64,000 bases of DNA from contig JAFGIN010000021.1 of assembly GCA_016929595.1 (NCBI GenBank), forward strand, positions 1-64,000, in the 5' to 3' direction. This document shows, in pieces, positions 1-16,784 of this stretch; position 1 is the first letter of the stretch; every line of letters starts with the position of its first letter. The notes under the pieces were generated by a model. That model searched no databases. It was not told the DNA's origin and saw nothing but the letters and a program-made list of their open reading frames with translations. Both the position numbers and the translations under genes were made by a program. Origin of the DNA: Chitinispirillaceae bacterium (GTDB lineage: Bacteria; Fibrobacterota; Chitinivibrionia; Chitinivibrionales; Chitinispirillaceae).

Positions 1-358
1 ACTGAGTAACTGAGTAACTGAGTAACTGAGTAACTGAGTAACTGAGTAACTGAGTAACTGAGTAACTGAGTAACTGAGTAACTGAGTGACTTGGTGACTT
101 GGTAACTTGGTAACTTGGTAACTGGGTAACTGGGTGACTGAGTGACTGGGTGACTGAGTGACTGGGTGACTGGGTGACTGGGTGACTGGGTGACTGGGTG
201 ACTGAGTGACTGGGTGACTGAGTGACTGGGTGACTGGGTGACTGGGTAACTGGGTAACTGGTAACTGGTAACTGGTAACTGGTAACTGGTAACTGGTAAC
301 TGGTCACTGGTCACTGGTCCACTGGGCACTGGTCACTGGTCACTGGGCACTGGTCACT
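1..358. repeat. Degenerate tandem repeat, 8-bp units changing to 7-bp units
   Basis: The first part is an almost perfect run of the octamer actgagta (1-88). It drifts through acttggta and actgggta to mixed actgggtg/actgagtg octamers (to about 256). It then switches to the heptamer actggta, and finally to actggtc with occasional cactgggc variants. Units in all frames carry stops, so this is not coding. It begins before the window and ends about 10 bp from the helicase stop codon. The graded change of unit along the array looks like slippage plus unit conversion. No function can be assigned. Confidence 0.95.
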
Positions 359-367
359 CTCCGGCCT

Positions 368-3286
368 CTAATTTTTACCTCCCGTAAGAATTTCAACAAG
401 ATCCTCACGCGTGAACTTTTTCATCTCTTCAGGACTATCTTCTGTAAGGACTTTGTTTGACAAAATACGCTTGCGCCGAATAATCGTATCGATTCGTTCC
501 TCGATGGAATCTTTGGTGACCAGTTTGAATACTTCAACTCCGCGTGTCTGCCCGAACCGGTGCACCCGGTCGGTAGCCTGATCTTCACGGGCCGCATTCC
601 ACCACCGGTCATAATGTATGACCGTTGATGCCGGTGTGAGATCGATGCCAACACCTCCAGCTTTGAGACTGCAGATAAATACGCGGCATTGAGAATCCTG
701 CGCGAATTTCTGTACAAGCGCATCACGTTTCACGGTCTTTCCCGTCAGAAGTGCTGTACCGATGCCTATCTTTTCGCAATGTAATTTTATAATGTCAAGC
801 ATTTTAAGGTACTGAGAAAATACAACCACCTTCTGATTACTTCCAAGACACTCATCAAGCAACTGTTTAAACAGTTCCCATTTACCTGATTCTGAAGCGG
901 TATATCCTTCCGGATTTTCCAGCAGTGATCCCGGGTGATTGCAGATCTGTTTAAGATAGGAAAACAGTGAATAAAAATTGATATATTGTATTGGTTGATC
1001 GGTTTTTTTCAGTGATTCAAGCAATGGTCCGCCACGCTCTTCCAAAACCTCTTTATAAAGATCAAATTGTTCACCTGTTAATTCGCAATACCGCACCTCT
1101 TCAATTTTTGCAGGCAGTTCAGTCAGCACCGACATTTTGAGCCTTCGTAGCATGAATGGTTCTATTATCCGCTGAAGCGACTTCCTTTCCCCATCAGACA
1201 TTCCAGCACCCTGTTCATCAATAAACCGCCCCTGTTCGTTATCCATATCCATGGAGAAAAGGCCGGAAATTGTCAGATTGAAAAGGGTTTTGAGTTCATA
1301 TATGTTATTTTCTATGGGTGTTCCTGTCAACCCAAGCTTAAGCACAGCATCAAGATTGAATGCTGCAGCAGTTGACAATGAGGCACTGTTTTTCAACTGC
1401 TGTATCTCATCAAATATCACAATCCTGAACTTGATTGCGGAAAGCAATTCAATATCGTTTCTCAGAATTCCAAACGTGGTAATCAGTATATCGAAATCGT
1501 CGGTGTTTAGTTTCTCATCCCGATTTCCACTGTAATGAGTTTTGACACGTATATCGGGCAAAAACCGCTTCAGCTGACGCTCCCAGTATTCAAGTACTGA
1601 TGCCGGGCAGATAACCAGATGAGGGCCACTGCACTCACGCTGTTCTCTGAGTGCACCAAGAAAAGCGATCGTTTCGATAGTCTTACCAAGCCCCATTTCA
1701 TCACAAAGCAATCCACCGAAATTATTATCGTAAAGGAAAAGAAGCCACTGTACACAATGTTTCTGATATTCCCGCAGATCTCCGTTAAAACGCTCGAGCG
1801 GTATAAAATCACGAACTGGTTTAAATTCAAACATCTCCTTGATTTTTTTGGTAAGTGAGTTATTCTTACTGAACTTCATCCTCATCGATGCACTTTTAAA
1901 GCGCATCAGCGCAGCTTTCGGTATAGTAACCGTACCATCCTTCCCTACCCCTTTTGCGCTGACAATTGATGCATTGATTGCCGGACTTTTCATATCCACA
2001 GTCAGCTCAGATGTACATAGAAAACGTTTTTTTTCATTTTTTGCATTAAGTAAGGATATCAATGTAACAGACCCGTTTTTCGAGGAGTAATTGATCTGTA
2101 AAGTACAGCTTGTGTCGTCCATTTTTACCGGGTTCAGTTCGACATTATCAAATGAGGTGATAATTTCGGGGCTGGCAATCCTTGCGAAATTCAATTCTTT
2201 AACCCCGGTTGAAAAGAGGTCAAGTTGAGCAGCTCCCTGTTCTTTGGATGAAAGTGAAAAAACTTCACCATTTTTTTCGAGAAATGCTGAAATTTCCTCA
2301 ACGGGAATACTTTTTTGCTCGCCCCAGCCGGTTGCAATCAGCTTCATACTGTCCTGGGTACAATTGACAAACATTCTTTTTCCCGGCAGGTACAGATAAC
2401 GATGGTAAAAAAAACGACTATCGATTTCATCCAGTCCATTCGTTTCAGAATCGCCTGACCTTACAACCGGGAATATGCTTACCTGTGAAGTTTTATCACT
2501 ATTCTCAAGTCGGAACAACAGCTCCTGTTCAATATCAGGAATGTTTAAATCAGTCTGTATTTTCGAACCGGTTTTACACATCTCCACAATATTGGGAACA
2601 ATTTCGTTTGGTAATGGTGCTTTAAAAACAAGCTGTTCTGCATTATACCATGTGAGAAAGCAATGACCATTCTCGTGATCGACTCCGAACCGGGGAATAA
2701 TACCATCATCACCGAATTCTCTGAACAGATGATATGCAGCTAGAAACCAGAAGCTCTTTTCTGTCACTTGACGAAACGATTTCTGCCCCATCTCTGAAAG
2801 TGCTTTCTCCTGATCACTGATAACAAACTTTACGGCATTGTGCATAAAATGAAGACGTGACAATTTGTCAGGCATTATCCGGCCAAGAAAGCGTTCTTCA
2901 TTTTCGGTTGAAAAGAATGTTTCTGCCAGCAATTTTTTCTGAGCGCTGAAAACAGTTACTCCATAAGGATGAGTTGTTTTTGGAACCGCCCGTATGTTCT
3001 CAACACTGCAGGGATTTACACGAATATAGAGATCAAAAATTTTGCGAATGAATGATTTCTGGAAGACGGTATCGGGTAATTCATTGTTGTATTTCTGCAA
3101 TAATTGGTCATATCCGTCTTTGAGAGCCTGTGCATGGGTACAGGTTGCATAGGAACCGTTCGAGCAGCTGCAAAACATCTTAGGTTTTTTCTTTTTTCCC
3201 TCAGCTGGAATGCAGATGGTCATTTTCTGCCCTTTCTGATCATAGAGCAGCGCAACATTTCGAATAAATTCGATATTTTCTAACAA
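368..3286 (-). CDS. SWIM zinc finger SNF2-family helicase/ATPase
   Basis: A 972-aa Swi2/Snf2 superfamily-2 ATPase, expected to translocate on DNA and remodel protein-nucleic acid complexes (RapA/HepA-like class). An N-terminal SWIM zinc finger is visible at about residues 38-52 (CSC, then CTH). A poorly conserved middle follows, then the two RecA lobes from about residue 510. Motif I reads CDEMGLGKT, motif II is DEIQ rather than DEAH, motif III is LTGTPIEN, and the C-terminal lobe has QATDRVHRFGQ. The start used is TTG at 3286 with AAAGGA upstream. The first internal ATG (3223) would still keep the SWIM finger, so the exact start is uncertain. It is monocistronic and its stop lies next to the tandem repeat. 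The family is confident; the cellular role is not. Confidence 0.93.
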   Translation of the reverse strand: MLENIEFIRNVALLYDQKGQKMTICIPAEGKKKKPKMFCSCSNGSYATCTHAQALKDGYDQLLQKYNNELPDTVFQKSFIRKIFDLYIRVNPCSVENIRAVPKTTHPYGVTVFSAQKKLLAETFFSTENEERFLGRIMPDKLSRLHFMHNAVKFVISDQEKALSEMGQKSFRQVTEKSFWFLAAYHLFREFGDDGIIPRFGVDHENGHCFLTWYNAEQLVFKAPLPNEIVPNIVEMCKTGSKIQTDLNIPDIEQELLFRLENSDKTSQVSIFPVVRSGDSETNGLDEIDSRFFYHRYLYLPGKRMFVNCTQDSMKLIATGWGEQKSIPVEEISAFLEKNGEVFSLSSKEQGAAQLDLFSTGVKELNFARIASPEIITSFDNVELNPVKMDDTSCTLQINYSSKNGSVTLISLLNAKNEKKRFLCTSELTVDMKSPAINASIVSAKGVGKDGTVTIPKAALMRFKSASMRMKFSKNNSLTKKIKEMFEFKPVRDFIPLERFNGDLREYQKHCVQWLLFLYDNNFGGLLCDEMGLGKTIETIAFLGALREQRECSGPHLVICPASVLEYWERQLKRFLPDIRVKTHYSGNRDEKLNTDDFDILITTFGILRNDIELLSAIKFRIVIFDEIQQLKNSASLSTAAAFNLDAVLKLGLTGTPIENNIYELKTLFNLTISGLFSMDMDNEQGRFIDEQGAGMSDGERKSLQRIIEPFMLRRLKMSVLTELPAKIEEVRYCELTGEQFDLYKEVLEERGGPLLESLKKTDQPIQYINFYSLFSYLKQICNHPGSLLENPEGYTASESGKWELFKQLLDECLGSNQKVVVFSQYLKMLDIIKLHCEKIGIGTALLTGKTVKRDALVQKFAQDSQCRVFICSLKAGGVGIDLTPASTVIHYDRWWNAAREDQATDRVHRFGQTRGVEVFKLVTKDSIEERIDTIIRRKRILSNKVLTEDSPEEMKKFTREDLVEILTGGKN

Positions 3287-3523
3287 AAAAAGCCAATCCT
3301 TTTAATGAATCCTGATTTTTTTAAACGAAATATACTTTATAACGATGCTTTTTCCGGTCCGAAAAAACAAGACGCCAATGAATCCAGAAAAGCATGTGAA
3401 ATCTATCTTCCAGTCCTGCTTTTCCATCCGGACCTTAATTCACTAATATCAGGTAAACCATGAAAAATACTTCAAAACAATTCTCATCTTTGAATCCATT
3501 GAAAGATTTATTAAATTTTCATT

Positions 3524-4171
3524 ATGAGCAAAAAAATACCTGACCAGTTTGGTTTTTACGCTGTTTTAACAGATCCTCTTAAAGGATATGAGTACCTCAC
3601 AAGTGTTTGTGTTGAGTACAAAGTTGCTTTCGTTCAGCTTAGAATGAAAGATGTTCCGCTCTCGAGTATCTATAAAACTGCTGAATCAATGAAAAAAATT
3701 ACTGATGGCACCCGGACAAAACTTGTTATCAATGATTTTCCACAAATTGCAGCTGATATAGGTGCTGATGGGATTCATGTAGGACAGGGAGATGCACCAT
3801 ATGAAGAAGTACGCAAAATCGTCGGCCAGGAGATGATTGTCGGTATTTCCACCCACTCAGAGTCACAGGCAATCGAGACAAGCCGGCTGGATCCGGATTA
3901 TATCGGTGCAGGTCCGGTGTATCCGACCCCGACAAAAAAAATACCCGATCCTGCAATCGGCACCGATGGTTTAAAGAAAATTCTTTCCTGTACATCAATT
4001 CCGGCGGTTGCTATCGGCGGCATCAGTCTTGACAATTTCAGGGACGTGCTCTCTACCGGTGCCGTTAATTTCTGCATGGTTCGCCAGTTTACACAATCAC
4101 CCACCCCGGAAAGAGTCATCAAAACGATCCAGACCATTTACAATGAGTATTATCCGGGATTTTACGGGTAA
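3524..4171 (+). CDS. thiE: Thiamine-phosphate synthase
   Basis: A 215-aa TIM-barrel enzyme of the ThiE/TenI family. ThiE joins HMP pyrophosphate and the thiazole phosphate to give thiamine monophosphate in the cytoplasm. Visible signatures are VQLRMKD near residue 38, the NDFPQIAADIGADGIHVGQ stretch near 72-90, GPVYPTPTKK near 130 and AIGGIS near 163. The length matches the family. The GPVYPTPTKK loop is the phosphate/substrate loop that favours ThiE over TenI, but TenI is not excluded. No other thiamine gene and no TPP riboswitch is visible nearby, and the ATG at 3524 has only a weak ribosome binding site. Confidence 0.88.
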   Translation: MSKKIPDQFGFYAVLTDPLKGYEYLTSVCVEYKVAFVQLRMKDVPLSSIYKTAESMKKITDGTRTKLVINDFPQIAADIGADGIHVGQGDAPYEEVRKIVGQEMIVGISTHSESQAIETSRLDPDYIGAGPVYPTPTKKIPDPAIGTDGLKKILSCTSIPAVAIGGISLDNFRDVLSTGAVNFCMVRQFTQSPTPERVIKTIQTIYNEYYPGFYG

Positions 4172-4295
4172 ATAAATCCGCCCTCCTCTGAAATCATTTA
4201 CATTAAGAAGTTCTTTTCGGCACGTTGATTGCAGTCATTTATTCTGTTTTTTCGCTGCAGTATTACGAAATTTGATTAACAGTAAGGGAGGAGTC

Positions 4296-4745
4296 ATGCT
4301 AGAATCAGAATTAATCGAAAAATTGAACTCTATGATCAGGCTTGATAATGATGCGTTATCAAGTTACAACAAAGTACTCGACAACATTAATGAACAGGTC
4401 ATCAAATCGGAAATTACCAAATACAGGGATGATCATTTACGGCATGTAGATAATTTGTCAGGTCTGATAATAAAGTATGGTGGTGTTCCAACCAGAGATG
4501 ACAAGGATATTCGGGGATTGTTTTTAGGATCAGCCACTGCAATACAGAATATAGCAGGTTTGCAAGGTTCACTTATGGCATTGCAAACGGGTGAAAAATT
4601 GACCAATAAAGATTATTCGGAAGCTGTTTCCTGGAATGTTCCTGAAGATGTACTACTGATACTGAAAGACAATTATGAAGACGAAAAGAGACATTTGCGT
4701 TTTATTAATCAAGCGATAGCTGATAAGGTGTGGGAAAGAAGATAA
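4296..4745 (+). CDS. Ferritin-like four-helix protein (DUF2383-like)
   Basis: A 149-aa, wholly helical, soluble protein. The ATG at 4296 follows a strong GGGAGGAG site, so I prefer it to the upstream TTG at 4272. Spaced Glu/His positions fit a ferritin-like di-iron bundle: DDHLRHVD near residue 47 and YEDEKRHLRF near residue 130. Size and pattern recall the DUF2383/PA2169 group of ferritin-like proteins, whose function is poorly known. It stands alone between ThiE and a strong hairpin terminator at 4820-4872. Metal binding is inference. Confidence 0.75.
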   Translation: MLESELIEKLNSMIRLDNDALSSYNKVLDNINEQVIKSEITKYRDDHLRHVDNLSGLIIKYGGVPTRDDKDIRGLFLGSATAIQNIAGLQGSLMALQTGEKLTNKDYSEAVSWNVPEDVLLILKDNYEDEKRHLRFINQAIADKVWERR

Positions 4746-4819
4746 GCATATATTATTTGAATCAATTTCGGTATTACTTTACTGCTTACAGTAGCTGCGT
4801 GTAACAGGTGAAACTCAGG

Positions 4820-4872
4820 AAGGCCGATCATACTTATGCCCCTCATAAAAAGGCATAAGTATGATCGGCCTT
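4820..4872 (+). terminator. Long perfect hairpin terminator
   Basis: A 21-bp perfect inverted repeat (4820-4840 with 4852-4872) around an 11-nt loop. The distal arm runs into TTTT. It lies 75 bp after the ferritin-like gene and fits an intrinsic terminator, though the stem is longer than usual. Confidence 0.75.
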
Positions 4873-5089
4873 TTGAACAGACATGAGAAATAAGCAACAG
4901 AGCATAGACCCGGGAATTCTCTTCGAAAAGTGAGCATAAGATCAGAACTTATCAGCATACAGCTGAATACAGAATTTTTCTCATAATTGAGAATATAGTT
5001 GATAGTATTTTCCATTACAGTATATTACTTATAATAGCAGATGCTCATATATGACCATCTAATTGATATCACAACACAAGGAGGAAACA

Positions 5090-5872
5090 ATGGGAAAGCA
5101 CATTATCCGCCTCTCCCGCTGGTCCACCCGTTCACTATACCAGGTCTATAGTAGATTACTCACCCTGGTTTTTGCTCTTTTCTGTGGTGTAACAGGACAA
5201 ATCCAGAGGTCTGCATCGTCAAAACAGGCCAATAATACAACCGCAACGTTTAAAGGTACTGCCTACCTGGCCAGTGATTCCTCTGTACTCAAAAATATCC
5301 AGTTCTACCTTGAGAACTGTATCCTTGTCAGATACGGGATCATGCCCGATTACGGGATTATGCCGGAATACGGGGTCTCAGCATGGTATGGAATTAATAC
5401 CGGGACACCTTTAGCAACCTTTAAAACAGATGAAAATGGAAACTTTCAAACCCAGTTTTCTGCTCCTGTCAATAGAACCTACACTATTAGCAGTGAAGAT
5501 ATAGTGACACCAGGTGGAAAGGTGCGATACTATACATCAGGGTGTCTCACGATTAAAGCCGGTGTTGATACCTCATATACGCTCTATTTTCAGAATATGA
5601 CAACCTCGGCCACACCAGCACGCACCGACACCGAACATCAATTTACCCTTTCGGCTATTGCAGGGAAGGATTTCCTGTTTCAGATCCCGGATTGGAAGGG
5701 ACAGAATATATCTGCAGCCATAATCAATAGCCAGGGACAAAAGGTAACAACCCTGAACTCCGACGCAACCGGAAAACTGTGCTGGAACACAAGGGCAATT
5801 GCCGGTGGGATCTATTTTCTGCAGGTACAAAATGACAGGAATACTCTTTCTATGAAAATACTGGTTAAATGA
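5090..5872 (+). CDS. Exported substrate/partner of the rSAM-lipoprotein-type system, with YG hexapeptide repeats
   Basis: A 260-aa exported protein translated from ATG 5090 behind AAGGAGG. A basic N-terminus precedes a hydrophobic segment at about 20-36 that contains a Cys (ALFC); this is not a canonical lipobox. Next comes a beta-rich region with residues near 45-80. Four back-to-back hexapeptides start with Tyr-Gly at residues 82, 88, 94 and 100 (YGIMPD, YGIMPE, YGVSAW, YGINTG). A carboxypeptidase-regulatory-like beta segment follows, then a C-terminal T9SS/FlgD-like domain from about 185 ending GGIYFLQV...ILVK. Its stop overlaps the start of the radical SAM gene. The family resembles the partner proteins of the rSAM/lipoprotein system annotated in Bacteroidetes (TIGR04134-like, from memory). 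The YG region is inferred to be the modified site. Confidence 0.8.
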   Translation: MGKHIIRLSRWSTRSLYQVYSRLLTLVFALFCGVTGQIQRSASSKQANNTTATFKGTAYLASDSSVLKNIQFYLENCILVRYGIMPDYGIMPEYGVSAWYGINTGTPLATFKTDENGNFQTQFSAPVNRTYTISSEDIVTPGGKVRYYTSGCLTIKAGVDTSYTLYFQNMTTSATPARTDTEHQFTLSAIAGKDFLFQIPDWKGQNISAAIINSQGQKVTTLNSDATGKLCWNTRAIAGGIYFLQVQNDRNTLSMKILVK

Positions 5873-6966
5873 ACCGCATCGATAAATTATCACTGAAAAA
5901 GAAAATTGCGTTACGATTGTACTCTGCGAAACGCAAAGCCGATGCACGCGCACATGAGCTTCAATACCTGTTCTGGGAATGTACACTCCGGTGCAACATG
6001 GCGTGTCTTCATTGCGGAAGTGACTGCATGCGTGATGCAACAACACCCGACATGCCAATTAAGGACTTCACAAAAGTTCTTGACAGGATCAGCGAACATA
6101 CCAACCCTGCCAAAATTGTGGTAGCAATTACCGGCGGTGAACCACTCATGCGTGGGGATCTGCCTGAAGCCGGCAATGAGATTGCCAGACGGGGCTTTCG
6201 CTGGGGAATGGTAACTAACGGGTATTTACTCAATAGTAACAGAATGAAAGAACTGGTGCAGTCAGGCATCCGTTATCTGACAATCAGCTTTGATGGCCTT
6301 GAAGAAACACATAACTGGCTGCGCGGCAGAAAAGATGCATACGTACACGCTTGTGATGCAATTAAATATGCTTCAGAGGCCCGAAGTACCTCAGGACTAT
6401 TCTTTGATGTTGTCACGTGTGTCAATCAGCGTAACATCGGACAACTGGAGCAGATGAAAAAAGTGCTGACAGATCTTAAAATGCCGGCATGGCGTCTGGG
6501 AACTATCTTTGCCAAAGGACGCGCATCTGGAAATAAGGAGTTAACTCTTAACCGAGAGCAACTCTATCAACTGCTGGATTTTATCGTAGCGACACAGAAG
6601 GAAGGAAACATTTTCACCACCTTTGGATGTGACAGTTTTCTGGGCAGCTATGAAATGGAGGTTCGCCCTCAGCCTTTTTTCTGCTGGGCAGGAATAAATA
6701 TCGGATCAGTTCTTGTCGATGGATCAATCTCCGCCTGCCCATCACTGCGGGCCGATTACATTCAGGGCAATATCTATAAAGATGATTTTCTGGATGTCTG
6801 GAATAACCGGTTTCAGGTGATGCGCAATCGGGAATGGTTAAAACAGGGTGAGTGTGCAGACTGCAAGATGTGGAATCTCTGTCTAGGAAACGGTCTCCAT
6901 CTCCGCCGCGAAAGCGATCTCAAACTGCTGAGTTGTCATTACAGAGAAATGACAACAGATCACTGA
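5869..6966 (+). CDS. Radical SAM/SPASM enzyme, rSAM-lipoprotein-system type
   Basis: A 365-aa radical SAM protein. The 4Fe-4S-binding CxxxCxxC is C42, C46 and C49, within LFWECTLRCNMACLHCGSDC; this block closely recalls the rSAM/lipoprotein-system maturase family (TIGR04133-like). TGGEPLMRGDL (about 85-95) is the SAM-contacting GGE motif. The C-terminal third is a SPASM-like domain with Cys at the FFCWAG, ISACPS, ECADCKMWNLC and LLSCHY blocks, expected to hold auxiliary Fe-S clusters. Its ATG overlaps the TGA of the YG-repeat gene (ATGA), so the pair is translationally coupled. SPASM enzymes usually modify peptides; the neighbour is therefore the likely substrate. The chemistry performed cannot be read from sequence. 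Confidence 0.92.
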   Translation: MNRIDKLSLKKKIALRLYSAKRKADARAHELQYLFWECTLRCNMACLHCGSDCMRDATTPDMPIKDFTKVLDRISEHTNPAKIVVAITGGEPLMRGDLPEAGNEIARRGFRWGMVTNGYLLNSNRMKELVQSGIRYLTISFDGLEETHNWLRGRKDAYVHACDAIKYASEARSTSGLFFDVVTCVNQRNIGQLEQMKKVLTDLKMPAWRLGTIFAKGRASGNKELTLNREQLYQLLDFIVATQKEGNIFTTFGCDSFLGSYEMEVRPQPFFCWAGINIGSVLVDGSISACPSLRADYIQGNIYKDDFLDVWNNRFQVMRNREWLKQGECADCKMWNLCLGNGLHLRRESDLKLLSCHYREMTTDH

Positions 6967-7281
6967 ACAGGGAGAAGCAATTCCTTCAGTAATCACCCTG
7001 ACAAAAATAATCTGAATCGGACGATTGTAACTGCTGTTCTTTAGTCGTAAGGTATGGTACGTTAGCACCGTTTAAATTCTACCGCTTTCCTTCAGGTGAT
7101 CTGTTCGCATTTTTGGTATCTTGAGTTTGCAGATACCCACCCGAGCATAACACTGCTGACTTCAAAAACCTTTCAACAGTGTCTTCAAAAACCTCAGGCA
7201 CCGGTGCCTGAGGTTCTCGAAGGCACCGGTACTGGTCGACAGGAAATCGTCGGTTGGAGAATATGAGACCTGGTTTTTATC
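6967..7281. other. Convergent intergenic region with a 26-bp palindrome
   Basis: 315 bp between the convergent rSAM and hydrolase genes. It contains two copies of a cttcaaaaacct motif (about 7160-7172 and 7182-7194), the perfect palindrome 7190-7215 and a partial copy of its core (aggcaccggt, 7221-7230). No credible coding sequence is seen. Confidence 0.7.
7187..7215 (-). terminator. Palindromic terminator for the minus-strand hydrolase
   Basis: The 26-bp palindrome at 7190-7215 (arms of 13 bp meeting at accggt) is followed on the minus strand by a run of five T. It lies about 65 bp beyond the hydrolase stop codon, which suits an intrinsic terminator. A dimeric protein site is an alternative. 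Confidence 0.5.
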
Positions 7282-8754
7282 CTATTGTTTCATGAGGCTG
7301 TTCTGCTCAACTTTCACGCGGGAATCGGAGCAGAACGTGCAGTTCGAGCCATAAAAATACTTGCGGCTTGCAGTATCGTTCATCAGGTGACCCCTGAACC
7401 ATGCGGCAGCTGCAGAAAGAGAGACACCATTTGCTCCCTGATATACCCAGTAACCATGATCAGAAGCGAGCTCATTGAGGAAAAAGGCTGGTTGATCTTT
7501 AACAGACAGGAAAATATCTTTGACTCCACTACATTTTACCGTTTCGTCTTTTCCACCACAGTGAAACAGTATCGGAGTGTGAAGGCCCTTAAGCTCAGCA
7601 GTTCCACAAATCGTCATCAGAGCCTTGTAGCGAGGGTCAGCCGCAGTATTGCAGGTTGACATTCCGCCATATGAATGGCCATACTGGCCGATTTTTGATA
7701 TATCAAGACAATGGTAATAGGGACTGCTTGGATCCTCATTCTGCTCAATTATCCAGTCCATACCCGTAAGCGTAGGATAAGGTTTCGTTCCTGTTGCCGT
7801 GCTCAGTGATGCTACCACAACAAAACCGTGCGAAGCAAGATGCTGTAAAATAGGCAGATACTGTCCACACCAATTTTGATTACGATCAAGAACACATTTG
7901 CCATTCGGTTCTGGATTATCCCGATACCCATTAGCCCATATCAGAATGGGGTGCAGATACCCGCTGGTCTTAAGGTTCTTGGGACGATACACATTAAAAC
8001 GCATCTGCTTACCGTAGACCGGATCATCAGCAGTGCCAGCCAGAGGGCCTACATCTTTGTCTGCAGCCACCTCGAACGGACCCGCTGCGGCAGGATTAGC
8101 TGTAGGAAATTGCTTCCCAACAATGATTGAATCCAGAGTGATATCCTGTTTCTGATTATCGAGCGAGGTAATAGCTACAGACTTTTCCTTAAAACCAGTT
8201 GCAGAGACCTTTATGGTATCGACAACTGCAGCTGCCGCCATCAATCCGCTACGGTTGGGAACTGTTGACGTCGCATTGACAGGGCTTACAACCGATCGTC
8301 CACCATTAAGTGACATGTAGCGGAAAGACACTTCCGACTTGCCCATTGCAGCTCTGATCAGAAGGGCTTTTGCAACCTGGCAATTTTTTGTAATGTCAAA
8401 TCGATAAATTCCCGCAGGCACATCAACATTTATCTCCTGTCTTAACAGTTCACCTTTCAAATTAAATATTTCCACTTTTATTGGTGAAGGAGTTCCAACT
8501 GCAAATTGTAATACGTCATTATTTAATGAGATTCTGTTGACACGAGGCACAATCGCAGGAAGTGTTGCCACCTGACTTGTAAAAGAATATGTACCGTCAG
8601 TACCGGTGGTATCCTTCATTTTTTGATGTACCAGTGAAACAATGGCATTCGGAATAGCTTTGCCTGCTGAATTGGAAATCGTGCCTCGCAAGTTAATAGT
8701 TTGTGCACTCACTGCCAATCCTGCGCATAAAATCGCAGTAAACATTTTGGACAT
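7282..8754 (-). CDS. Secreted alpha/beta-hydrolase (PETase/chlorophyllase-like) with beta-sandwich N-terminus
   Basis: A 490-aa secreted protein from ATG 8754, which has AAAGGA upstream and starts a clean signal peptide (about 1-17, ending SAQ); the longer reading from 8844 adds a hydrophobic stretch without support. After the signal comes a carboxypeptidase-regulatory-like domain. It seems interrupted by a T9SS/FlgD-like beta module (VEIFNLKGELLRQE ... PAGIYRFDI, about 85-120) before it resumes near KVSATGFKEKSVAI. The C-terminal 270 residues are an alpha/beta hydrolase. The nucleophile elbow is GHSYGG, an acid is likely at CGGKDETV and the histidine at SDHGYW. It resembles the dienelactone hydrolase/PET hydrolase-type esterases. 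The substrate is unknown; carbohydrate esters are possible in this organism. Confidence 0.8.
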   Translation of the reverse strand: MSKMFTAILCAGLAVSAQTINLRGTISNSAGKAIPNAIVSLVHQKMKDTTGTDGTYSFTSQVATLPAIVPRVNRISLNNDVLQFAVGTPSPIKVEIFNLKGELLRQEINVDVPAGIYRFDITKNCQVAKALLIRAAMGKSEVSFRYMSLNGGRSVVSPVNATSTVPNRSGLMAAAAVVDTIKVSATGFKEKSVAITSLDNQKQDITLDSIIVGKQFPTANPAAAGPFEVAADKDVGPLAGTADDPVYGKQMRFNVYRPKNLKTSGYLHPILIWANGYRDNPEPNGKCVLDRNQNWCGQYLPILQHLASHGFVVVASLSTATGTKPYPTLTGMDWIIEQNEDPSSPYYHCLDISKIGQYGHSYGGMSTCNTAADPRYKALMTICGTAELKGLHTPILFHCGGKDETVKCSGVKDIFLSVKDQPAFFLNELASDHGYWVYQGANGVSLSAAAAWFRGHLMNDTASRKYFYGSNCTFCSDSRVKVEQNSLMKQ

Positions 8755-9556
8755 AATGATTCCTTTGATTAAAATTACAATATTTAATATAAAGGAAAAA
8801 AAACTTAAATGTGACATGATTGACATAATTACTATATATTGCAAAGTTTCACTTCTACTGTTACGATAAAATTGCCACGTATAATCTCAAATTACACGTG
8901 GACACATCTGTCCACATTTCTTTTTTCGATAACAGGTTATTACTGAAAAATCGCTATCTCAATCCATGGAGTAAAAGCCGCAGGTAACAAAGCTTGATAG
9001 TTGAACAACTGGTTGAAAATCAGTTTTTACCACGAAGGGCACGGGGAAGTTTGAAGAGGGAAGTTTGAAGGGAGAAGGGTGAAAGAAATTCTTTATCTTT
9101 TTTCCCTCTGTGTCTCTGTGCCTCTGTGTGAGATATTTCTTTCCCCCGGTAACTTGAAGAAATTTTACCACGAAGAGCACGAAGGAACACGAAGAAGAAG
9201 AGGATGCTCTCACGGAGACACGGGGGCACGGAGAAGTTTGAAGGGTGAAGGGTGAAAGAAATTCTTTATCTTTTTTCCCTCTGTGTCTCTGTGCCTCTGT
9301 GTGAGATATTTCTTCCACCGGTAACTTGAGGAAATTTTACCACGAAGCGCACGAAGGAACACGAAGAAGAAGACAAAAAAAGGCTCTCACGGAGGCACGG
9401 GGGCACGGAGAAGTTTGAAGGGTGAAGGGTGAAGGGTGATGGGTGAAGGGTGAAAGAAATTCTTTATCTCTTTTCCTCTGTGTCCCTGTGCCACTGTGTG
9501 AGATATTTCTTTCCCCTTGCGGAAACATAAATACCTCGCACACGAACAATTCTTCA
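8755..9556. other. Long intergenic region, mostly dispersed repeat
   Basis: 802 bp between two minus-strand genes. 8755-9015 is AT-rich and should hold the hydrolase promoter. 9019-9520 consists of dispersed repeat units. Reading frames that translate the repeat as HTEAQRHRG-type peptides are artefacts. Confidence 0.8.
9019..9520. repeat. Dispersed low-complexity repeat, three tandem units
   Basis: Three units of about 160-180 bp. Each has a block of the form ccacgaag..cacgaaggaacacgaagaagaag, then a tcacggagacacggggg-like block, then aagtttgaagggtgaagggtgaaagaaattctttatc, then the block cctctgtgtctctgtgcc and ctctgtgtgagatatttctt. The tcacggag block and the cctctgtg block are imperfect inverted complements, so each unit can fold into a long imperfect hairpin. 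Diverged copies recur at 11110, 12170 and 13912. Confidence 0.9.
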
Positions 9557-10426
9557 TCACAATTTGCATTGAATCTTCCCAGCCACATGCAAAAAAAACT
9601 CCTTTGACCAGACATCAAGTTCACGGGGGTCCCTGACAAACCGTTCAACGTCTTCCTTTATTTGAGTAAAATTGACAGTTTTTATTCTTTCGGAAAGAAT
9701 CCCCAAAAACGACTTGTCGTCAAGAGGTTCAATCTTCGTATAAAATTTGATCTGTCGCAGTCGTGCTTCAAGATGACGGAGGTTGAGCGGAATATTTTTC
9801 CGGACAAAAAATACCAGATCGTACCAGTCTCGTCCCTTTACCCGATTGTTCCATGACCTGGCAAGAACTGCTGCCATTTTTCCTGCGAAAAGTGATGCCG
9901 GATCGTAAATCGCAATGCTGAATGGCACCGGATCGTCAACATACCGTACTTCAAAGCCAGCTTCAGGTGGGGGATCGGTGTCAATTTCCAGTTTCACTTT
10001 GGTTACCTCTTCTGAATGTAATTGCCTGGCAAGCTGTGGCTCAAGAAAAGTTTCGATCAGGACCTGCCTTGTAGTGGCTTTAATGAATGCCGATTCTATC
10101 GGTGTAATGACCTTTTTTTCACGCATTGTTACTTCTGTTACAAAACCAAATGATGCAAGCTCTTCCCTGATACCGGAAATATATGAATCGAGTGTAAATC
10201 CCGAAAGCGGTGCCCTGAGTGAAAAGTCAAGATCTTCAGAAAATCTATCAAGTCCGTAGACAATTCGCAAAGCAGTACCACCATAAAAAGCAGCTTTAGC
10301 AAAGAAATCTGTTCGGGATAGGCCCAGAAGTGCAATAAGTTGGATCAGTTCGGCAATTGTTTGCTGTACCGATCCGTTGTTTCGCTTTTGATATTCGTCA
10401 AAAAGTTGATCAAGTGCGTTTTTCAT
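9557..10426 (-). CDS. abiEii: AbiEii-type nucleotidyltransferase toxin
   Basis: A 289-aa member of the AbiEii/AbiGii nucleotidyltransferase family, the toxin of type IV toxin-antitoxin and abortive phage-infection systems. The nucleotidyltransferase signature is clear: FYGGTALRIVYGLDRFSEDLDF at about residues 47-68, with the GG(S/T) and DxD-type acidic residues. KVKLEID near residue 142 and a conserved AGKMAAVLARSWNNRVKGRDWYDL block near 180 also fit. The start overlaps the end of the upstream gene by ATGA, as expected for an antitoxin-toxin operon. The family is known to arrest growth by transferring nucleotides to cellular RNA acceptors; the target here is not known. Confidence 0.88.
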   Translation of the reverse strand: MKNALDQLFDEYQKRNNGSVQQTIAELIQLIALLGLSRTDFFAKAAFYGGTALRIVYGLDRFSEDLDFSLRAPLSGFTLDSYISGIREELASFGFVTEVTMREKKVITPIESAFIKATTRQVLIETFLEPQLARQLHSEEVTKVKLEIDTDPPPEAGFEVRYVDDPVPFSIAIYDPASLFAGKMAAVLARSWNNRVKGRDWYDLVFFVRKNIPLNLRHLEARLRQIKFYTKIEPLDDKSFLGILSERIKTVNFTQIKEDVERFVRDPRELDVWSKEFFLHVAGKIQCKL

Positions 10427-11040
10427 TTTTTCATACTCCTTATCAGACGGGCAAACGTCTCAACCGTCGTGCTTTTATATAATGGAGCAAGCTCACTTAT
10501 TATCTGCGTATCAACGCTCAGAAGGTCTTCATAATCAATGCGCAAGTCGTCAAACAACAGTTTTTCCAGTCGCCTGAGCGACCGTATGGTACCGGTTGTA
10601 GATAGTTCGTCACACAATGCTTTTTCCGGTGTAGCAACAAGAAAGCGGACACCATTTTCATTACGGTAGGTAACAGCCCTGTGAAAAACCGCAGCGGGAA
10701 CATCACGATAAAAAAAAACGCCTACCGGAGTTACAAAGCGCTTTGAGCGGTGCTTACCCCTTGTTGCAGAAGTTACATTCGGCACATATTCGGGGATAAA
10801 ATTGTAGATCCGCAGTGCATATGCAAATGAAACATATGATGGCCCATACAGTCTGTTGGCAATACAGCCTCCGGGAAAATGGTTTGCTACAGCATTGCTC
10901 GTTATATACAACCCTCTTTTAAGCCGAATCAACTCCTTTTTTCGTTCAAGCGCAGCAATTTTTGCGCGAGGATCAGCATAATTCTGAAACTGGTTGTTGA
11001 GCCATAGTGTATCAGGAAGTGGAATGGGAATATTCTGCAT
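10423..11040 (-). CDS. abiEi: AbiEi-type antitoxin / regulator
   Basis: A 205-aa protein encoded directly upstream of and overlapping the AbiEii gene. ATG 11040 has GGAG upstream; the longer reading to 11091 lacks one. The N-terminus has a short winged-helix-like segment with KKELIRLKRGLYITSN, the hallmark of AbiEi antitoxins. The body has GPSYVSFAYALRIYNFIPEYVP and VATPEKALCDEL, also typical of that family. In studied systems AbiEi represses its own promoter and neutralises AbiEii at the DNA/regulatory level. Dispersed repeats flank the operon on both sides, consistent with an accessory insertion. Confidence 0.85.
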   Translation of the reverse strand: MQNIPIPLPDTLWLNNQFQNYADPRAKIAALERKKELIRLKRGLYITSNAVANHFPGGCIANRLYGPSYVSFAYALRIYNFIPEYVPNVTSATRGKHRSKRFVTPVGVFFYRDVPAAVFHRAVTYRNENGVRFLVATPEKALCDELSTTGTIRSLRRLEKLLFDDLRIDYEDLLSVDTQIISELAPLYKSTTVETFARLIRSMKK

Positions 11041-11109
11041 AATCGCTCCAGTTAGTAGTATAAATATACGTTTAATGGAGCAAACTTGCAATTATTATTC
11101 ATTATTTAG

Positions 11110-11432
11110 AATTTTTTACCACGAAGGGGCAGGAAGAAGTGTAAAGGGTGAAGGGTGAAGTTTGAAATAAATTCCTTTTTCTTTTTTTCTCTGTGGCTCT
11201 GTGCCTCTGTGCAAGATATTTCTTTCACCGGTAAATCGAAGAAATTTTCACCACGAAGTGCACGAAGGGGCACGAAGAAGAAGACAAAAAAAGGCTCTCA
11301 CGGAGGCACGGAGAAGTTTGAAGGGTGAAGGGTGAAAGAAATTCTTTATCTTTTTTCCTCTGTGTCTCTGTGCCTCTGTGTGAAATATTGCTTTTTCAGC
11401 TTCAGGTTTTCCTTCTTCGAATTTCACCCTTC
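11110..11432. repeat. Dispersed low-complexity repeat, two units
   Basis: Two diverged units of the same family as at 9019. The ccacgaag block occurs at 11118 and 11250, the tcacggaggcacgg block at 11298, the gaagggtgaa block at 11140 and 11321, and the ctctgtg block at 11190 and 11357. It fills nearly all the space between AbiEi and the broken ATPase, and extends to its 3' end. Confidence 0.88.
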
Positions 11433-11439
11433 ACCCTTA

Positions 11440-12055
11440 TCAATAAGCTCCACCCCACAACCGTAAAAGAAACTCCTTCCAGGGCAACACTTCAATTTTT
11501 CCTATTTGTCGTGGCATAGCATCAAGCGAGACTACGATAGCATACTTCATGATATTTTCACTGGTAAATCTTTGAAGCGCTTTGATACGTTTGTCGGTTA
11601 CCATTCCGGTTGATTTGACTTCGATTGCAACATCATCACCGATGATAAAATCAACCTCATTACCACTATAATCGCGGTAAAACGTAAGTGGTCTTTTATC
11701 ATTCGCATACTGCAGGTATGCATGCAGTTCACAGAAAATGAACTGCTCAAAACTCTTGCCGAACAGTTCAGTATGTGGAAGAATCGATTTTCTTCCTGCA
11801 AGTTGATTGCAGACACCAATGTCAAACATATAGAATTTTGATGTAGAAAAGGCTTTTCGCTGCTGTCTTTTGCTATAGTGATGGTCGCAGACTTAATCGT
11901 GCAAACTGATCAGATAACAAGAGGTTGTAATACGGGGATTCAGGAAAAAGTTTCCGCAACAAAGAAGTTTTTCCAGTCTGGCGCGGACCGAAGAGAAAAA
12001 TCGATCGTTTTGAAGCGATATCTGCAAGATTAATCGCCCTTTTATAGTAATTCAT
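11440..12055 (-). pseudogene. Internally deleted AAA/DUF4143 ATPase
   Basis: The remains of a P-loop ATPase of the type fused to DUF4143. The N-terminal piece (12055 down to 11873) keeps a start, an intact Walker A (GPRQTGKTS) and about 60 residues before a stop. The C-terminal piece (about 11829 to 11440, other frame) keeps KFYMFDIGVCNQLAGR and a PD-(D/E)XK-like GNEVDFIIGDDVAIEVKS core and ends normally. Roughly 200 residues that should hold Walker B and the rest of the ATPase are absent. The gene therefore suffered an internal deletion plus frame change and should be inactive. Repeats lie on both sides. Confidence 0.8.
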
Positions 12056-12167
12056 AGCTATAAAATAACTTTAAACTATAAATTCTGCAACTCTATTGCG
12101 GATATTTTGCTAATTTCAGCATAACTGTTGCGGATTTTCATAATTTGAGCACTCAAACAATCATACA

Positions 12168-12476
12168 TCTTTTACCACGAAGAGGCACGAGGAAGGGTGA
12201 AGTTCGAAATAATTTTTTTTTCCCCTCTGTAACTCTGTGCCTCTGTGTGAGATTTTTCTTCCATCGGTAAATCGAAGAAATCTTCACCACGAAGAGCACG
12301 AAGGTACACGAAGATACATATAGGATAAATACAAAACAGTTTCATTGACATTCAACAAAACGCTACTTTTTTAATTCTCTTAAAATCAAACATCTTTTCT
12401 TTTTTTCCTTCGTGCTCTTCGTGCTCTTCGTGGTTAATCTTTTCCCCTCGGTGTCTCTGTGTCTCTGTGTGAGCTC
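12168..12476. repeat. Dispersed low-complexity repeat with inverted ends
   Basis: Copies of the ccacgaag block at 12174 and 12286, a ctctgtg block near 12225, and a reversed copy near 12408 (ccttcgtgctcttcgtgctc, then ttcgtgg). The last is the inverse complement of the first, so the segment could form a stem of about 30 bp around a 100-bp AT-rich loop. It separates the broken from the intact DUF4143 ATPase. Confidence 0.85.
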
Positions 12477-12516
12477 CATTTATCTTCATTTTCAATGCTG
12501 ATCAACACCAAAACAT

Positions 12517-13809
12517 TTACATCAGGAACCATTCTATTGCCGGAATTATTTGAATCTTACGGGAATTATCCTGTAAATTTTCAGTACTATTGAACGTTAT
12601 TATTCCGCCATTGCTAATATTTAGCTCTTTAAAAGCCTCTTCTAATCCGCCAATTTCCCGCTGCAGATTATTATTGTCAAGATTCCAGCATACCTGCCAT
12701 GCACTTTCAGGGTGGGAATCGGTCATCACTACAAAATCACATTCTCTTTTTCCTTTATAATAGCAGGTTCGTGATCCTCTGCGAAAAAATTCGCCAGCCA
12801 CAGCAGTTTCCAATAATTTACCGCGATAATCAGATCCAGATAACGTCAGCAGGCTGAAACCGGTATCTGTCAGGTATACTTTTTCCGGATTCATGGTACG
12901 TTTTCTTGCTGACCATGAAAATTTTTCGCTTGAAAGAAGAAAAAATGCTTCCTGAAGATATCGTAAATATGAAGCAACACTTCGCTTACTGCCACTATTG
13001 CCTGATTTTTGAAGTTGACTAGTATACGATGATACAGAGAATAGTTCTCCACTTCCATTGAGCACCGCCGACATGACACCATCAAGTAAATCACGTGCCT
13101 TTACACTGTACCTATCAATGATATCTCTGTAAAAAACGGTCTCATAATAGTTCTGAAGAAGATGTCGTCGAGATGATTTTTCAGTTAGCGCACAAACCTC
13201 CGGATAGCCACCGTTAAAAATCCAATCTTCAAATGCACCATTGACAATACCTCTACGTGAAGTGTGTAATGCTGAAGAACTGAAATCAATATTTTTAAAC
13301 CGCAGATATTCTCTAAAAGAAAATGGCATCAAAAGCACATCGTTATAGCGACCCCGGAGTTCTGTTGCGATTTCCCTTTTCAGTAATGAGGAATTACTTC
13401 CAGTAATGGTGATTGAATATTTACGTTGATTATGCAGCGTCCTGAGTAATTTACTCCAATCTGGAACCTGCTGGATTTCATCGAAAAACAAATACCGGGG
13501 CTGCTTTTTTGTAAGCTGTTGAAAAGCTTCAATGACAGAATCTATATGTTCAGGCTGGAAACCTTTCAATCTGTAATCTTCAAAATCAAGAAACAGGATA
13601 TCATCACGCGAAACCCCCTTTTTTACTAAGGCCTCAATTTTTTGAAACAGAAAAAATGTTTTTCCTGCACGTCTTGGGCCAACGACAGCGGTAATAGAGC
13701 CTGTTCCAGGTTGCGAAATCTCATCATTCAGTTCTCTCACCAGAAGAGACGGGAATGTAGTTTCATACAGCCACTCAGCAACGATTTTTAGTAGTAATTC
13801 AGATTTCAT
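12517..13809 (-). CDS. AAA ATPase with DUF4143 C-terminal domain
   Basis: A 430-aa intact relative of the neighbouring pseudogene. Walker A is GPRRAGKTF at about 41-49, Walker B is YLFFDEIQQV near 105-114, and a sensor-like ITGSNSSLL sits near 135. The DUF4143 region carries KVYLTDTGFSLLTLSG and GKRECDFVVM, the latter where a PD-(D/E)XK-like core would sit. Such genes are abundant in genomes with many accessory elements; their cellular function remains unknown. It is flanked by dispersed repeats, and three short AAACAAT-type motifs precede its start. It is monocistronic. Confidence 0.85.
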   Translation of the reverse strand: MKSELLLKIVAEWLYETTFPSLLVRELNDEISQPGTGSITAVVGPRRAGKTFFLFQKIEALVKKGVSRDDILFLDFEDYRLKGFQPEHIDSVIEAFQQLTKKQPRYLFFDEIQQVPDWSKLLRTLHNQRKYSITITGSNSSLLKREIATELRGRYNDVLLMPFSFREYLRFKNIDFSSSALHTSRRGIVNGAFEDWIFNGGYPEVCALTEKSSRRHLLQNYYETVFYRDIIDRYSVKARDLLDGVMSAVLNGSGELFSVSSYTSQLQKSGNSGSKRSVASYLRYLQEAFFLLSSEKFSWSARKRTMNPEKVYLTDTGFSLLTLSGSDYRGKLLETAVAGEFFRRGSRTCYYKGKRECDFVVMTDSHPESAWQVCWNLDNNNLQREIGGLEEAFKELNISNGGIITFNSTENLQDNSRKIQIIPAIEWFLM

Positions 13810-13828
13810 AATATTTTGTTTATCCTGT

Positions 13829-13869
13829 TAAACAATTTTATCATAAATTGTTTCTTTTATTAAACAATA
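13829..13869 (-). promoter_or_regulatory. Triple AAACAAT motif, possible operator
   Basis: Just upstream of the DUF4143 ATPase start lie taaacaattt (13829), aaattgttt (13845, inverted) and taaacaata (13861). The alternating orientation and 16-bp spacing suggest an operator. This is suggestive only, because the region is AT-rich. Confidence 0.3.
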
Positions 13870-13911
13870 ATACTATAAGTTACCCGATGAAACAAGGTGT
13901 TGGTATGTTTT

Positions 13912-14035
13912 TTAACGAAGAAGAAGATTCTCTCACGGAAACACGGGGGTATGGAGAAGTTTGAAGGGTGAAGGAGGAAGGGTGAAGGGTGAAATAAATT
14001 CTTTTTTTCCTCTGTGTGAGATATTTCTTCCACCT
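13912..14035. repeat. Dispersed low-complexity repeat, partial unit
   Basis: A truncated unit of the same family: aacgaagaagaagattctctcacggaaacacgggg, then gaagtttgaagggtgaaggaggaagg, then cctctgtgtgagatatttcttccacc. It ends about 20 bp from the cyclophilin stop codon and closes the repeat-delimited accessory zone. Confidence 0.85.
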
Positions 14036-14053
14036 GAGAGTTCCGTCAGTATG

Positions 14054-14578
14054 TCAATTAGTGTAGCCATTGACTGTAACCTTAATCATTTTGACAGGTT
14101 TTACAGGGCGGTCCTGACGGTCTGTTTTTGTTGTTTCGATGGCTTTGATTACCTCCATACCTTTGATAACCTTGCCAAATACCGGATGACGAGACGAACC
14201 AGGACCAAACCAGTCAAGAAAATCATTGTGGGCGGTATTGATAAAAAACTGTGATCCTCCACTGTCGGGTTCACCAGTGTTTGCCATTGCCAATGTCCCC
14301 GGTTCATTTGAAATCTTTGCATCTTGAGGGAACTCATCTTTTATGCATCCGGAATCGGGACCACCAGTTCCAGCCCGGGGACTTTTGGGATCCCGGCTGT
14401 AGGGACACCCGAACTGGCACATGAATCCTTCAATTACCCGATGGAAATGCAGTCCATCATAAAAACCAGCCTGTGCAAGATCCAGAAAGTTTTTTGCAGT
14501 GACAGGCATCTTATCAAGAAACAGTTCAACTTCAAAAGTCCCAAGTGATGTTTCACAAGTAGCAGTTGGATTTGACAT
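14054..14578 (-). CDS. Cyclophilin-type peptidyl-prolyl cis-trans isomerase
   Basis: A 174-aa cyclophilin that catalyses cis-trans isomerisation of prolyl bonds. Recognisable core residues are [13 protein letters not shown] (active-site Arg and Phe, about 49-61), [21 protein letters not shown] (about 97-118), and [14 protein letters not shown] (about 140). No signal peptide is present, so it is cytoplasmic and PpiB-like. It has Cys residues not usual in the family ([15 protein letters not shown]). AAGGAGC lies before the ATG. Monocistronic. Confidence 0.95.
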
Positions 14579-15140
14579 ATACAGGTGCTCCTTATTAAAA
14601 TCTGATATAAAATCTGTGTGCTGAAATTACTATATGCCAGTATATGAGCAAAAGGGTTACAGTGACCCCCTTGTTCTGTACCTGGCCTTTACCCGTGCTT
14701 GACTCCGGCATTGTGAGGAATCAGTATTTTGGTATGATATGATCTATTAAAGTATAAATGCTTGTAGAGCATTTATTATTGTAGCAAAAAAATTACATTA
14801 CATGCCCTCTTTCCCTGTAGGGGAAACATTATAATGATTCCCCTACAGGGAATAAAAGGATTTTGTGGCGCATTTTTTACTACAATAATTAAAGGGCATA
14901 CAGCCCATTTTCGTAATAACCTGAAAACCATACTGAATTGGATAGTGCAAACCATCTCCAGAGCATTTGAATCGTGAAAATAAGATAGATCCTACTCAAT
15001 TTTTCCCACCAATAAGACGGAGTTAAGTGTGTCATATGACCAGGTTCTGTACAGAGTAATCAACTTTTTGCACATGAATTACTGAGCAGAGAGCTGAATT
15101 ACCTGCACTCAGCACCATTTTCAGAATGTGCACTGAAAAT
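14579..15140. other. Long intergenic region with nested inverted repeats
   Basis: 562 bp between two minus-strand genes. It should contain the cyclophilin promoter and the end of the DsbD transcript. The notable content is the nested inverted repeat at 14770-14893. No coding sequence is supported. Confidence 0.7.
14770..14893. repeat. Nested inverted repeat
   Basis: The inner hairpin has 15-bp perfect arms ttccctgtaggggaa (14811-14825) and its complement (14838-14852) around a 12-nt AT-rich loop. Outer arms near 14771-14791 and 14872-14893 (ttattgtagcaaaaaa against ttttttactacaataa) pair with one mismatch. A nested palindrome of about 125 bp resembles a miniature mobile element or a stable RNA structure. 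Confidence 0.7.
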
Positions 15141-16784
15141 TTACTTTGGTTCAAGTATCACATACGTCGGCAGTCCCACTACCTTGAAATAATCCAGCAG
15201 TCTTTTTGTCTCCGGATCTTCGGGTTTCTCCGCCTGATATTTTACCAGTACATACTTGCTCATATTCTTTTGTACCTCGGGATCCTTGAAGGTTGTAGCA
15301 TCCATCGCTTTGCAGTTCTTACACCAGGTAGCCCAGAAATCAATGAAGACCGGTTTGTTTTCATCAGCCGCTTTTTTAAGGCCATCGTCAAGGGAATGAA
15401 TCCATGGCAGCATATTTCCTGAAACATTTTCAACAACGGTTTCAGGTACTTTCGTTTCCTGATACAGGGTGACTCCGATGTATCCATAGTAAAGTGCCAT
15501 AATAATGATAAATATGCCAAAAATGTATTTGATCCACACCATCCACTTACCCGGTTTGGGCAGAAATGAGAGGCCGGCTCCAGCAAACGGCCACGGCAGA
15601 GCCATCCCGACACCGAGCAGAAACGGCAGCAGCAATCCTGAGGTTGCTCCTGATGAGTAGAGACTCCCTGCGTAAATAACCACAGATATCACCACCGGCG
15701 CGACGCACGCACCCGCCAGAACAGATGCGAGAATCCCCATTAAAAATACCGTAAGCAATTTTCCGCGCTCTCTGTCACCAGAACTCTTTTTACGGAATCT
15801 GGTAAAATCAATCTGAATAATATCGAACATGGCAAGTGCCATGATGATAAATACAACAGCAATTATGATATTGAACAATGGCGAGGAATTGATCACGCCA
15901 AACTGAGTGCCGGTGATAACAACCACAAGACCAAGTATGCCATAGGTCAGTGCCATGGCAAGCCCGTAGACAGCACCGACAAACATACCACGCCCCCTGG
16001 TTTTCGCCTGCGCTCCGGCACCGATTACCGCAACCGTTATTGGTATCATCGGAAGAACGCAGGGGGTAAGATTGAGTGCTACACCACCAAGAAGAATCAA
16101 AAGAATAATAAGGAGCAATCCCTTTCCTTCGAAAGTGCTTTTTTCAGCCGATGGATTGTTAAGGAATTCAGAGAAAGCATCGGTTTTGAGGAATCCACCA
16201 CGGGAACCGATGACAGTAAATTGTCCAAGTGCCGCTATCAGCCCTTCGGTGGAGATCTCCTCACCGCTTCCGGAAGAGACGTTTGCCTCCGATTCGCTGT
16301 AAGATTTCGTCTCGAGAGTACCCTGAGCATTTGCTGTGAAAAGGATCTTTCGTGGCGTGAAACACATGATATTATCACACGCCTGATATTGCAAGGTGCC
16401 CTTCAGCGACCATCTTTCTTTAGCAATACGGGCGGAAATACGTACCTGTTGCCCATTAACATATACAGGAACAACTGACTTATCGAAATTGGTATACGGC
16501 TTACCCTTCGGAAGGGAAATAGCAACATTCCCAAGGCCTTGCTGTTCAATAAGCTTTATCTTGAAAAAAAGTGACTCGGCAGCATAGATGTGGATCTCCT
16601 CCTTCATATTAAACGTCAGGATAATCGAAACAGAGTCTCCGCCAGAAGTCAGCTCACGCGAGATGTTGAGTAGAACCGGTTCGGTTACTTCATCCGCTTG
16701 CTGAGCAAGTCCGGAAAGTTTAATCTCTGCTTGAAGAGGAACAATTATCAGTACGGCAAGAAGGAGTATTCTTTTAAGCATCAA
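15141..16784 (-). CDS. dsbD: Thiol:disulfide interchange protein DsbD-like
   Basis: A 547-aa inner-membrane protein that carries reducing power from cytoplasmic thioredoxin to periplasmic partners. The domain order is signal peptide (1-19), a periplasmic N-terminal DsbD-alpha-like domain (about 25-165), and eight or so membrane segments (about 220-440). The redox Cys lie in LNLTPCVLPMIPI and GACVAPVV. The C-terminal periplasmic thioredoxin domain has FWATWCKNCKAMD (about 478-490). Length is close to the usual 550-600. The CxxC in the C-domain is WCKNC. It is monocistronic; no cytochrome c maturation genes are visible nearby. Confidence 0.93.
   Translation of the reverse strand: MMLKRILLLAVLIIVPLQAEIKLSGLAQQADEVTEPVLLNISRELTSGGDSVSIILTFNMKEEIHIYAAESLFFKIKLIEQQGLGNVAISLPKGKPYTNFDKSVVPVYVNGQQVRISARIAKERWSLKGTLQYQACDNIMCFTPRKILFTANAQGTLETKSYSESEANVSSGSGEEISTEGLIAALGQFTVIGSRGGFLKTDAFSEFLNNPSAEKSTFEGKGLLLIILLILLGGVALNLTPCVLPMIPITVAVIGAGAQAKTRGRGMFVGAVYGLAMALTYGILGLVVVITGTQFGVINSSPLFNIIIAVVFIIMALAMFDIIQIDFTRFRKKSSGDRERGKLLTVFLMGILASVLAGACVAPVVISVVIYAGSLYSSGATSGLLLPFLLGVGMALPWPFAGAGLSFLPKPGKWMVWIKYIFGIFIIIMALYYGYIGVTLYQETKVPETVVENVSGNMLPWIHSLDDGLKKAADENKPVFIDFWATWCKNCKAMDATTFKDPEVQKNMSKYVLVKYQAEKPEDPETKRLLDYFKVVGLPTYVILEPK

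Follow-up and report, generated by a model that had tools for sequence, protein, structure and literature searches.

Tyr-Gly sites of exported partner proteins as very likely targets of TIGR04133 radical SAM enzymes, with a repeat array in a Fibrobacterota genome

What does a radical S-adenosylmethionine (SAM)/SPASM enzyme do to an exported protein in which Tyr-Gly (YG) recurs four times at an exact period of six residues? The question is raised by a gene pair in the first 64,000 nucleotides of contig JAFGIN010000021.1 from a Chitinispirillaceae bacterium (GenBank: GCA_016929595.1), a stretch that we call the window. The first gene encodes the exported protein, here called the partner. The second encodes the enzyme, which matches the TIGR04133 model with 503.6 bits (curated cut-off 425) over model positions 1-349 of 350. 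An earlier note on this DNA had likened the enzyme to the maturases of radical SAM/lipoprotein systems, which this match bears out, and had placed the four YG hexapeptides at residues 82, 88, 94 and 100, positions that are exact. YG marks the TIGR04133 family as a whole, and what is special in the window is the repeat array together with the route through the type IX secretion system (T9SS). Judged from the sequence comparisons below, the enzyme very likely acts at YG.

Scanning whole genomes, we found 80 loci of the TIGR04133 type in Bacteroidota, Fibrobacterota, Spirochaetota, Neomarinimicrobiota and one metagenome-assembled genome labelled Bacillales. Partners were chosen without bias, by their position upstream of the enzyme and an export-type N-terminus only, disregarding YG. 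60 of the 61 partners chosen in this way contain YG, and 50 of them contain YG[VTSILMCA]P, a pattern found in 7 of 181 controls, each a piece of 150 amino acids. Upstream DNA sufficed for this choice at 76 loci. At 15 of them nothing passed the filter, for the most part owing to the start codon chosen or to the spacing, and a YG protein is visible by eye near most of the 15. The single exception among the 61 is a partner paralogue (L077) without YG, whose open reading frame (ORF) ends 7 nt before the enzyme gene; the adjoining second copy keeps YG. The site consensus is (P/A)-(E/L/M/K)-Y-G-(V/T)-P, from 184 sites in 93 partners, a set that was picked for YG, so that only the flanks are informative.

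The partners are built as TIGR04134 lipoproteins, as Ser-rich Fibrobacter lipoproteins in which YG occurs up to 7 times, or as minimal lipoproteins of 75-92 residues, which consist of a lipobox, a linker and YG(V/M)P with little else. An example of a short lipoprotein partner (L097) is ..TPKYGMPISKYGMPPSVWNRKVNQ. As YG is kept across unrelated scaffolds, the motif is conserved and the scaffold is not. On the shared immunoglobulin (Ig)-like scaffold, YG precedes the domain in the TIGR04134 types, whereas the window type carries it within a loop. That the site has moved while the scaffold stayed constant strongly suggests that the enzyme depends on the motif itself. YG could also be structural or serve in binding, with the enzyme acting at another site of the partner or on a different molecule, and chance alone does place it in about one third of the control pieces (59 of 181). 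Both partner frequencies given above argue against this explanation, as do the unrelated scaffolds, including minimal lipoproteins that have almost nothing besides YG, and the location of the motif in a predicted-disordered loop, where structural conservation is not expected. We consider it very improbable.

In the window partner all four YG lie within loop residues 79-104, which are predicted to be disordered (predicted local distance difference test, pLDDT, < 50). When the 260-residue sequence was shuffled 200,000 times, at least four YG were obtained in 3,134 shuffles and four YG at period six in none. The earlier note had looked to an alignment of homologues for a hexapeptide number that varies between constant flanks, and this is what the 11 partner homologues from related genomes show. 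They have 1 to 4 hexads between constant flanks, YG82-83 is invariant in all 11, and the 0 to 3 extra hexads are inserted directly after this first YG, before the next strand. Hexad units 1 and 2 are identical in 15 of 18 DNA bases (3 differ) and, at this level, look like a recent tandem duplication; the array thus probably grows by tandem duplication of 18 bp.

Enzyme and full-length partner are both present in 9 of 24 family genomes and both missing from the other 15. One genome (G004) carries three extra partners, one in tandem and two unlinked, all with YG. At another locus (L200, G014:C220:65373-66108) a partner copy is broken by three in-frame internal stops and the enzyme is not linked. 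Comparison of the neighbourhoods gave no third conserved gene besides partner and enzyme; other conserved ORFs that were considered for this place are each antisense to the enzyme gene and were rejected. Taken as a whole, the best explanation is that the two genes encode an enzyme and its dedicated substrate.

The coordinates of the pair and its domains are collected in Table 1. AAGGAGG precedes the partner ATG at 5090, and the stop codon of the partner overlaps the start codon of the enzyme gene in an ATGA at 5869-5872, just as the earlier note had claimed. A long inverted repeat with arms of about 20 bp, at about 4822-4869, lies between a DUF2383 ferritin-like gene and the pair and is likely the terminator of the former; a hairpin at this place would fit with the two genes being transcribed as a unit of their own. 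The host genome is metagenome-assembled (6.6 Mb, 224 contigs, 95% complete, 3.6% contaminated) and its relatives are Fibrobacterota.

Table 1. Positions of the gene pair and its parts in the window.
Feature	Position	Strand	Basis
AGGAGG, ribosome-binding site of the partner gene	5079..5084	+	sequence
Exported partner, 260 amino acids, proposed substrate	5090..5872	+	ORF, ATG start, TGA stop
Signal-peptide region, residues 1-40, proposed recognition helix	5090..5209	+	column identity; predicted helix 2-40
Ig-like beta domain, residues 51-171, homologous to the TIGR04134 lipoprotein domain	5240..5602	+	model; profile comparison
Four YG hexads (YGIMPD, YGIMPE, YGVSAW, YGINTG), disordered loop	5333..5404	+	sequence; loop model
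T9SS type A C-terminal sorting domain, residues 203-260	5696..5869	+	TIGR04183; Foldseek
TIGR04133-family radical SAM/SPASM enzyme, 365 amino acids	5869..6966	+	profile match, homologues, structure model
Enzyme N-terminal helix, residues 9-28	5893..5952	+	structure model
CxxxCxxC radical SAM cluster motif, C42, C46, C49	5992..6015	+	invariant in 19 homologues
SPASM region, seven invariant Cys (254, 272, 290, 329, 332, 338, 356)	6628..6936	+	19 homologues

A specific candidate for the modification comes from the match of the site to the XYG(V/L)P of the tyramine spliceases, among them PlpX. We take TIGR04103 to correspond to IPR026482, the family assigned to PlpX. On a Nostoc plasmid, a TIGR04103 enzyme (853 bits against 725) lies beside a Nif11 precursor ending in IALYGLPPELF. 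PlpX, which belongs to IPR026482, excises tyramine at Xaa-Tyr-Gly (PMC11002830). Splicease substrates carry XYG, as do the engineered tags PIRPLYGLPI and AVAAGYGVVFP (PMC10533398), and a ten-residue tag such as PIRPLYGLPI works in foreign proteins without the leader of a ribosomally synthesised and post-translationally modified peptide (RiPP) (PMC10533398, PMC11002830, PMC10373908). By analogy, TIGR04133 enzymes probably excise tyramine at XYG and leave alpha-keto-beta-amino acids in exported proteins. The window enzyme is filed outside TIGR04103, and the same analogy makes it fairly likely that it works like a splicease.

In the proposed course of events, the TIGR04133 enzyme would recognise the pre-protein in the cytoplasm, probably via the conserved signal-peptide helix, and would act at each X-Tyr-Gly in the flexible loop. 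Tyramine would be excised at each site, leaving up to four alpha-keto-beta-amino acids per molecule. The modified protein would cross the inner membrane by Sec and be carried to the cell surface by the T9SS through its C-terminal domain, and the exposed surface loop would display up to four electrophilic ketoamides. One may at best guess that such a reactive surface group inhibits proteases or serves in covalent attachment.

Several observations weigh against tyramine excision. PlpX works together with PlpY, a RiPP recognition element (RRE) protein; no such gene is found at the window locus and no RRE domain in the predicted enzyme structure. X is Met, Leu or an engineered Gly in the PlpX substrates named in the literature consulted, whereas Arg, Asp, Glu and Trp precede the YG sites of the window. 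In one homologue (L055) DDG replaces the second YG, so not all hexads are needed. A few lipoprotein partners (L056, 3507-3911, ACYGTP; L150, 2607-2996, SCYGMP) have the lipobox Cys immediately before YG, and the change would thus fall on the lipid anchor residue. The enzyme scores 115.6 bits against TIGR04103, far below the curated cut-off of 725; several heme enzymes do at least as well (up to 122). The trees speak on both sides. In one sampling TIGR04133, PlpX and the GDL-peptide maturases form a group apart from heme and pyrroloquinoline quinone (PQQ) enzymes, with support of 99/95, and this support is 91/86 when AhbC and AhbD are added; seen from the PlpX/GDL side, TIGR04133 counts among the two or three families that come next. 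The TIGR04133-PlpX grouping was not recovered once long-branch rows were added, and alternative groupings were not rejected (approximately unbiased test, p 0.125 and 0.126). Kinship to PlpX is weakly resolved, and we discarded close kinship as a proof of function, the score and the trees being too weak in resolution. The proposed chemistry accordingly draws on the shared site and not on kinship.

The structure model of the enzyme (pLDDT 91.6; predicted TM-score, pTM, 0.90) comprises a radical SAM barrel, a SPASM domain and the N-terminal helix 9-28. Its closest solved folds are, with moderate TM-scores, SPASM RiPP maturases of the SkfB, SuiB and CteB type and anSME. These maturases form crosslinks or thioethers, which would suit another radical reaction at YG that leaves the backbone intact, be it a crosslink of Tyr to a neighbour, a cyclophane, or oxidation of Gly or Tyr. 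A SPASM enzyme of the mycofactocin pathway likewise acts on Tyr (PMC8326336). Fold similarity is, however, general among SPASM proteins. The residue after YG is variable (Pro at 11 of 184 sites), and the sites have no constant second residue to which a crosslink could form. The motif fits splicease sites and not sites of the Tyr-x-Asn type. We regard such a reaction as unlikely and prefer tyramine excision.

Within the partner, the signal region is the best conserved part after YG, with a mean pairwise column identity of 0.52 compared to 0.15-0.40 elsewhere. Signal peptides are seldom so well conserved, which suggests that the region is read by the enzyme. Signal region and Ig domain are homologous to TIGR04134 by profile comparison (hhalign 95.8%, E 8.3e-9). 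The earlier note had pointed to the TIGR04133 and TIGR04134 models for both proteins, and this pairing stands for the enzyme; the partner, although homologous, does not match TIGR04134 even at E values up to 10. Matches to TIGR04134 elsewhere in the host (C53, 22.8 bits) are sub-threshold, lie within longer frames and were set aside.

The note's further claims of a T9SS domain and of a missing canonical lipobox both agree with our results. The partner reaches 24.7 bits with TIGR04183 (cut-off 23) and 25.1 with PF18962, just below the cut-off of 27, and both sorting-domain models are matched by all 11 homologues at the thresholds used. The signal region ends in FALFCGVTGQ, with Phe at -1 of the Cys, and so lacks a lipobox. 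Foldseek aligned the C-terminal domain with 8glk_D, the NucA substrate chain of a T9SS (TMt 0.75 over 78 columns), and found mainly generic beta-sandwich matches for the rest of the partner, whose model has a low overall confidence (pTM 0.42) and was used for the domain pattern only. SprA, the machinery component that was looked for, is present in the host (TIGR04189, 445 bits, joined frame), together with 90 matches to the T9SS-type C-terminal domain. The partner had no match in PHROGs and none among plasmids.

Downstream of the pair, a PETase-like hydrolase (Pfam: PF12740, 29.9 bits against 28) with a signal peptide and a weak carboxypeptidase-regulatory-like domain is encoded on the minus strand at 7282-8844. 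Two adjacent minus-strand genes at 9557-11091 resemble, by reading alone, an AbiEii-type nucleotidyltransferase and an AbiEi-type regulator, a toxin-antitoxin-like arrangement. An interspersed repeat family with units of about 40-160 nt and the core CTCTGTGTCTCTGTGCCTCTGTGTGAG lies between and around the downstream genes (9043-9512, 11126-11394, 12162-12473 and 13921-14015). No Rfam match was found across window positions 1-16000.

The TIGR04133/TIGR04134 gene pair is common in Bacteroidota and Fibrobacterota, among them species of gut and rumen, and a specific and cheap prediction can now be made for it, a mass change of -135.07 Da per YG. If it is true, backbone-edited beta-amino acids occur in ordinary exported proteins of these bacteria, beyond natural-product peptides, and TIGR04133 enzymes would be leader-independent tools to place ketoamides in folded proteins. 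The splicease survey of Scott et al. 2022 (Chem 8:2659) may include TIGR04133, in which case the system is already described; this bears on novelty and is compatible with tyramine excision. A literature search, with Scott et al. 2022 outside its reach, found no paper naming TIGR04133 or TIGR04134, and the NCBIfam entry of June 2026 lists TIGR04133 as a hypothetical equivalog. A prior description is conceivable, although we would sooner expect there to be none. We tentatively propose, with slightly less than even confidence, that TIGR04133 enzymes from several phyla make up a second family of tyramine spliceases, one that needs no leader peptide and is directed at envelope proteins, and that a Fibrobacterota branch has evolved a T9SS-exported surface protein with an expandable array of at most four backbone ketoamides.

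Among known systems, the TIGR04133/TIGR04134 pair (rSAM_w_lipo, lipo_with_rSAM) is like the window pair in that the enzyme passes the cut-off, the partner gene lies directly upstream, and signal region, Ig-like domain and YG are shared. Unlike TIGR04134 partners, the window partner has no lipobox, carries a T9SS domain and holds its YG in an internal-loop array of up to four. The PlpXY spliceases (TIGR04103, IPR026482) share with the window pair a radical SAM/SPASM enzyme beside an X-Y-G-(V/L)-P substrate with several sites per substrate. The window enzyme, unlike PlpX, lies outside TIGR04103 and has no PlpY/RRE gene, and its substrate is an exported structured protein, whereas PlpX substrates are precursors with Nif11 or nitrile-hydratase leaders. 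The GDL-peptide maturases (TIGR03913) are related to the enzyme in the trees and lie beside DUF1843 peptides, which are small and have no export signal, unlike the window partner. At two such loci (L151, 2153-2866; L164, 1787-2242) some of these peptides have PYG and others YA instead at the same place, which suggests that a third enzyme family has a Tyr site of a related kind. Finally, the window partner resembles T9SS type A cargo in its signal peptide, its C-terminal sorting domain and the SprA of its host; what sets it apart is the predicted modification by a radical enzyme ahead of export.
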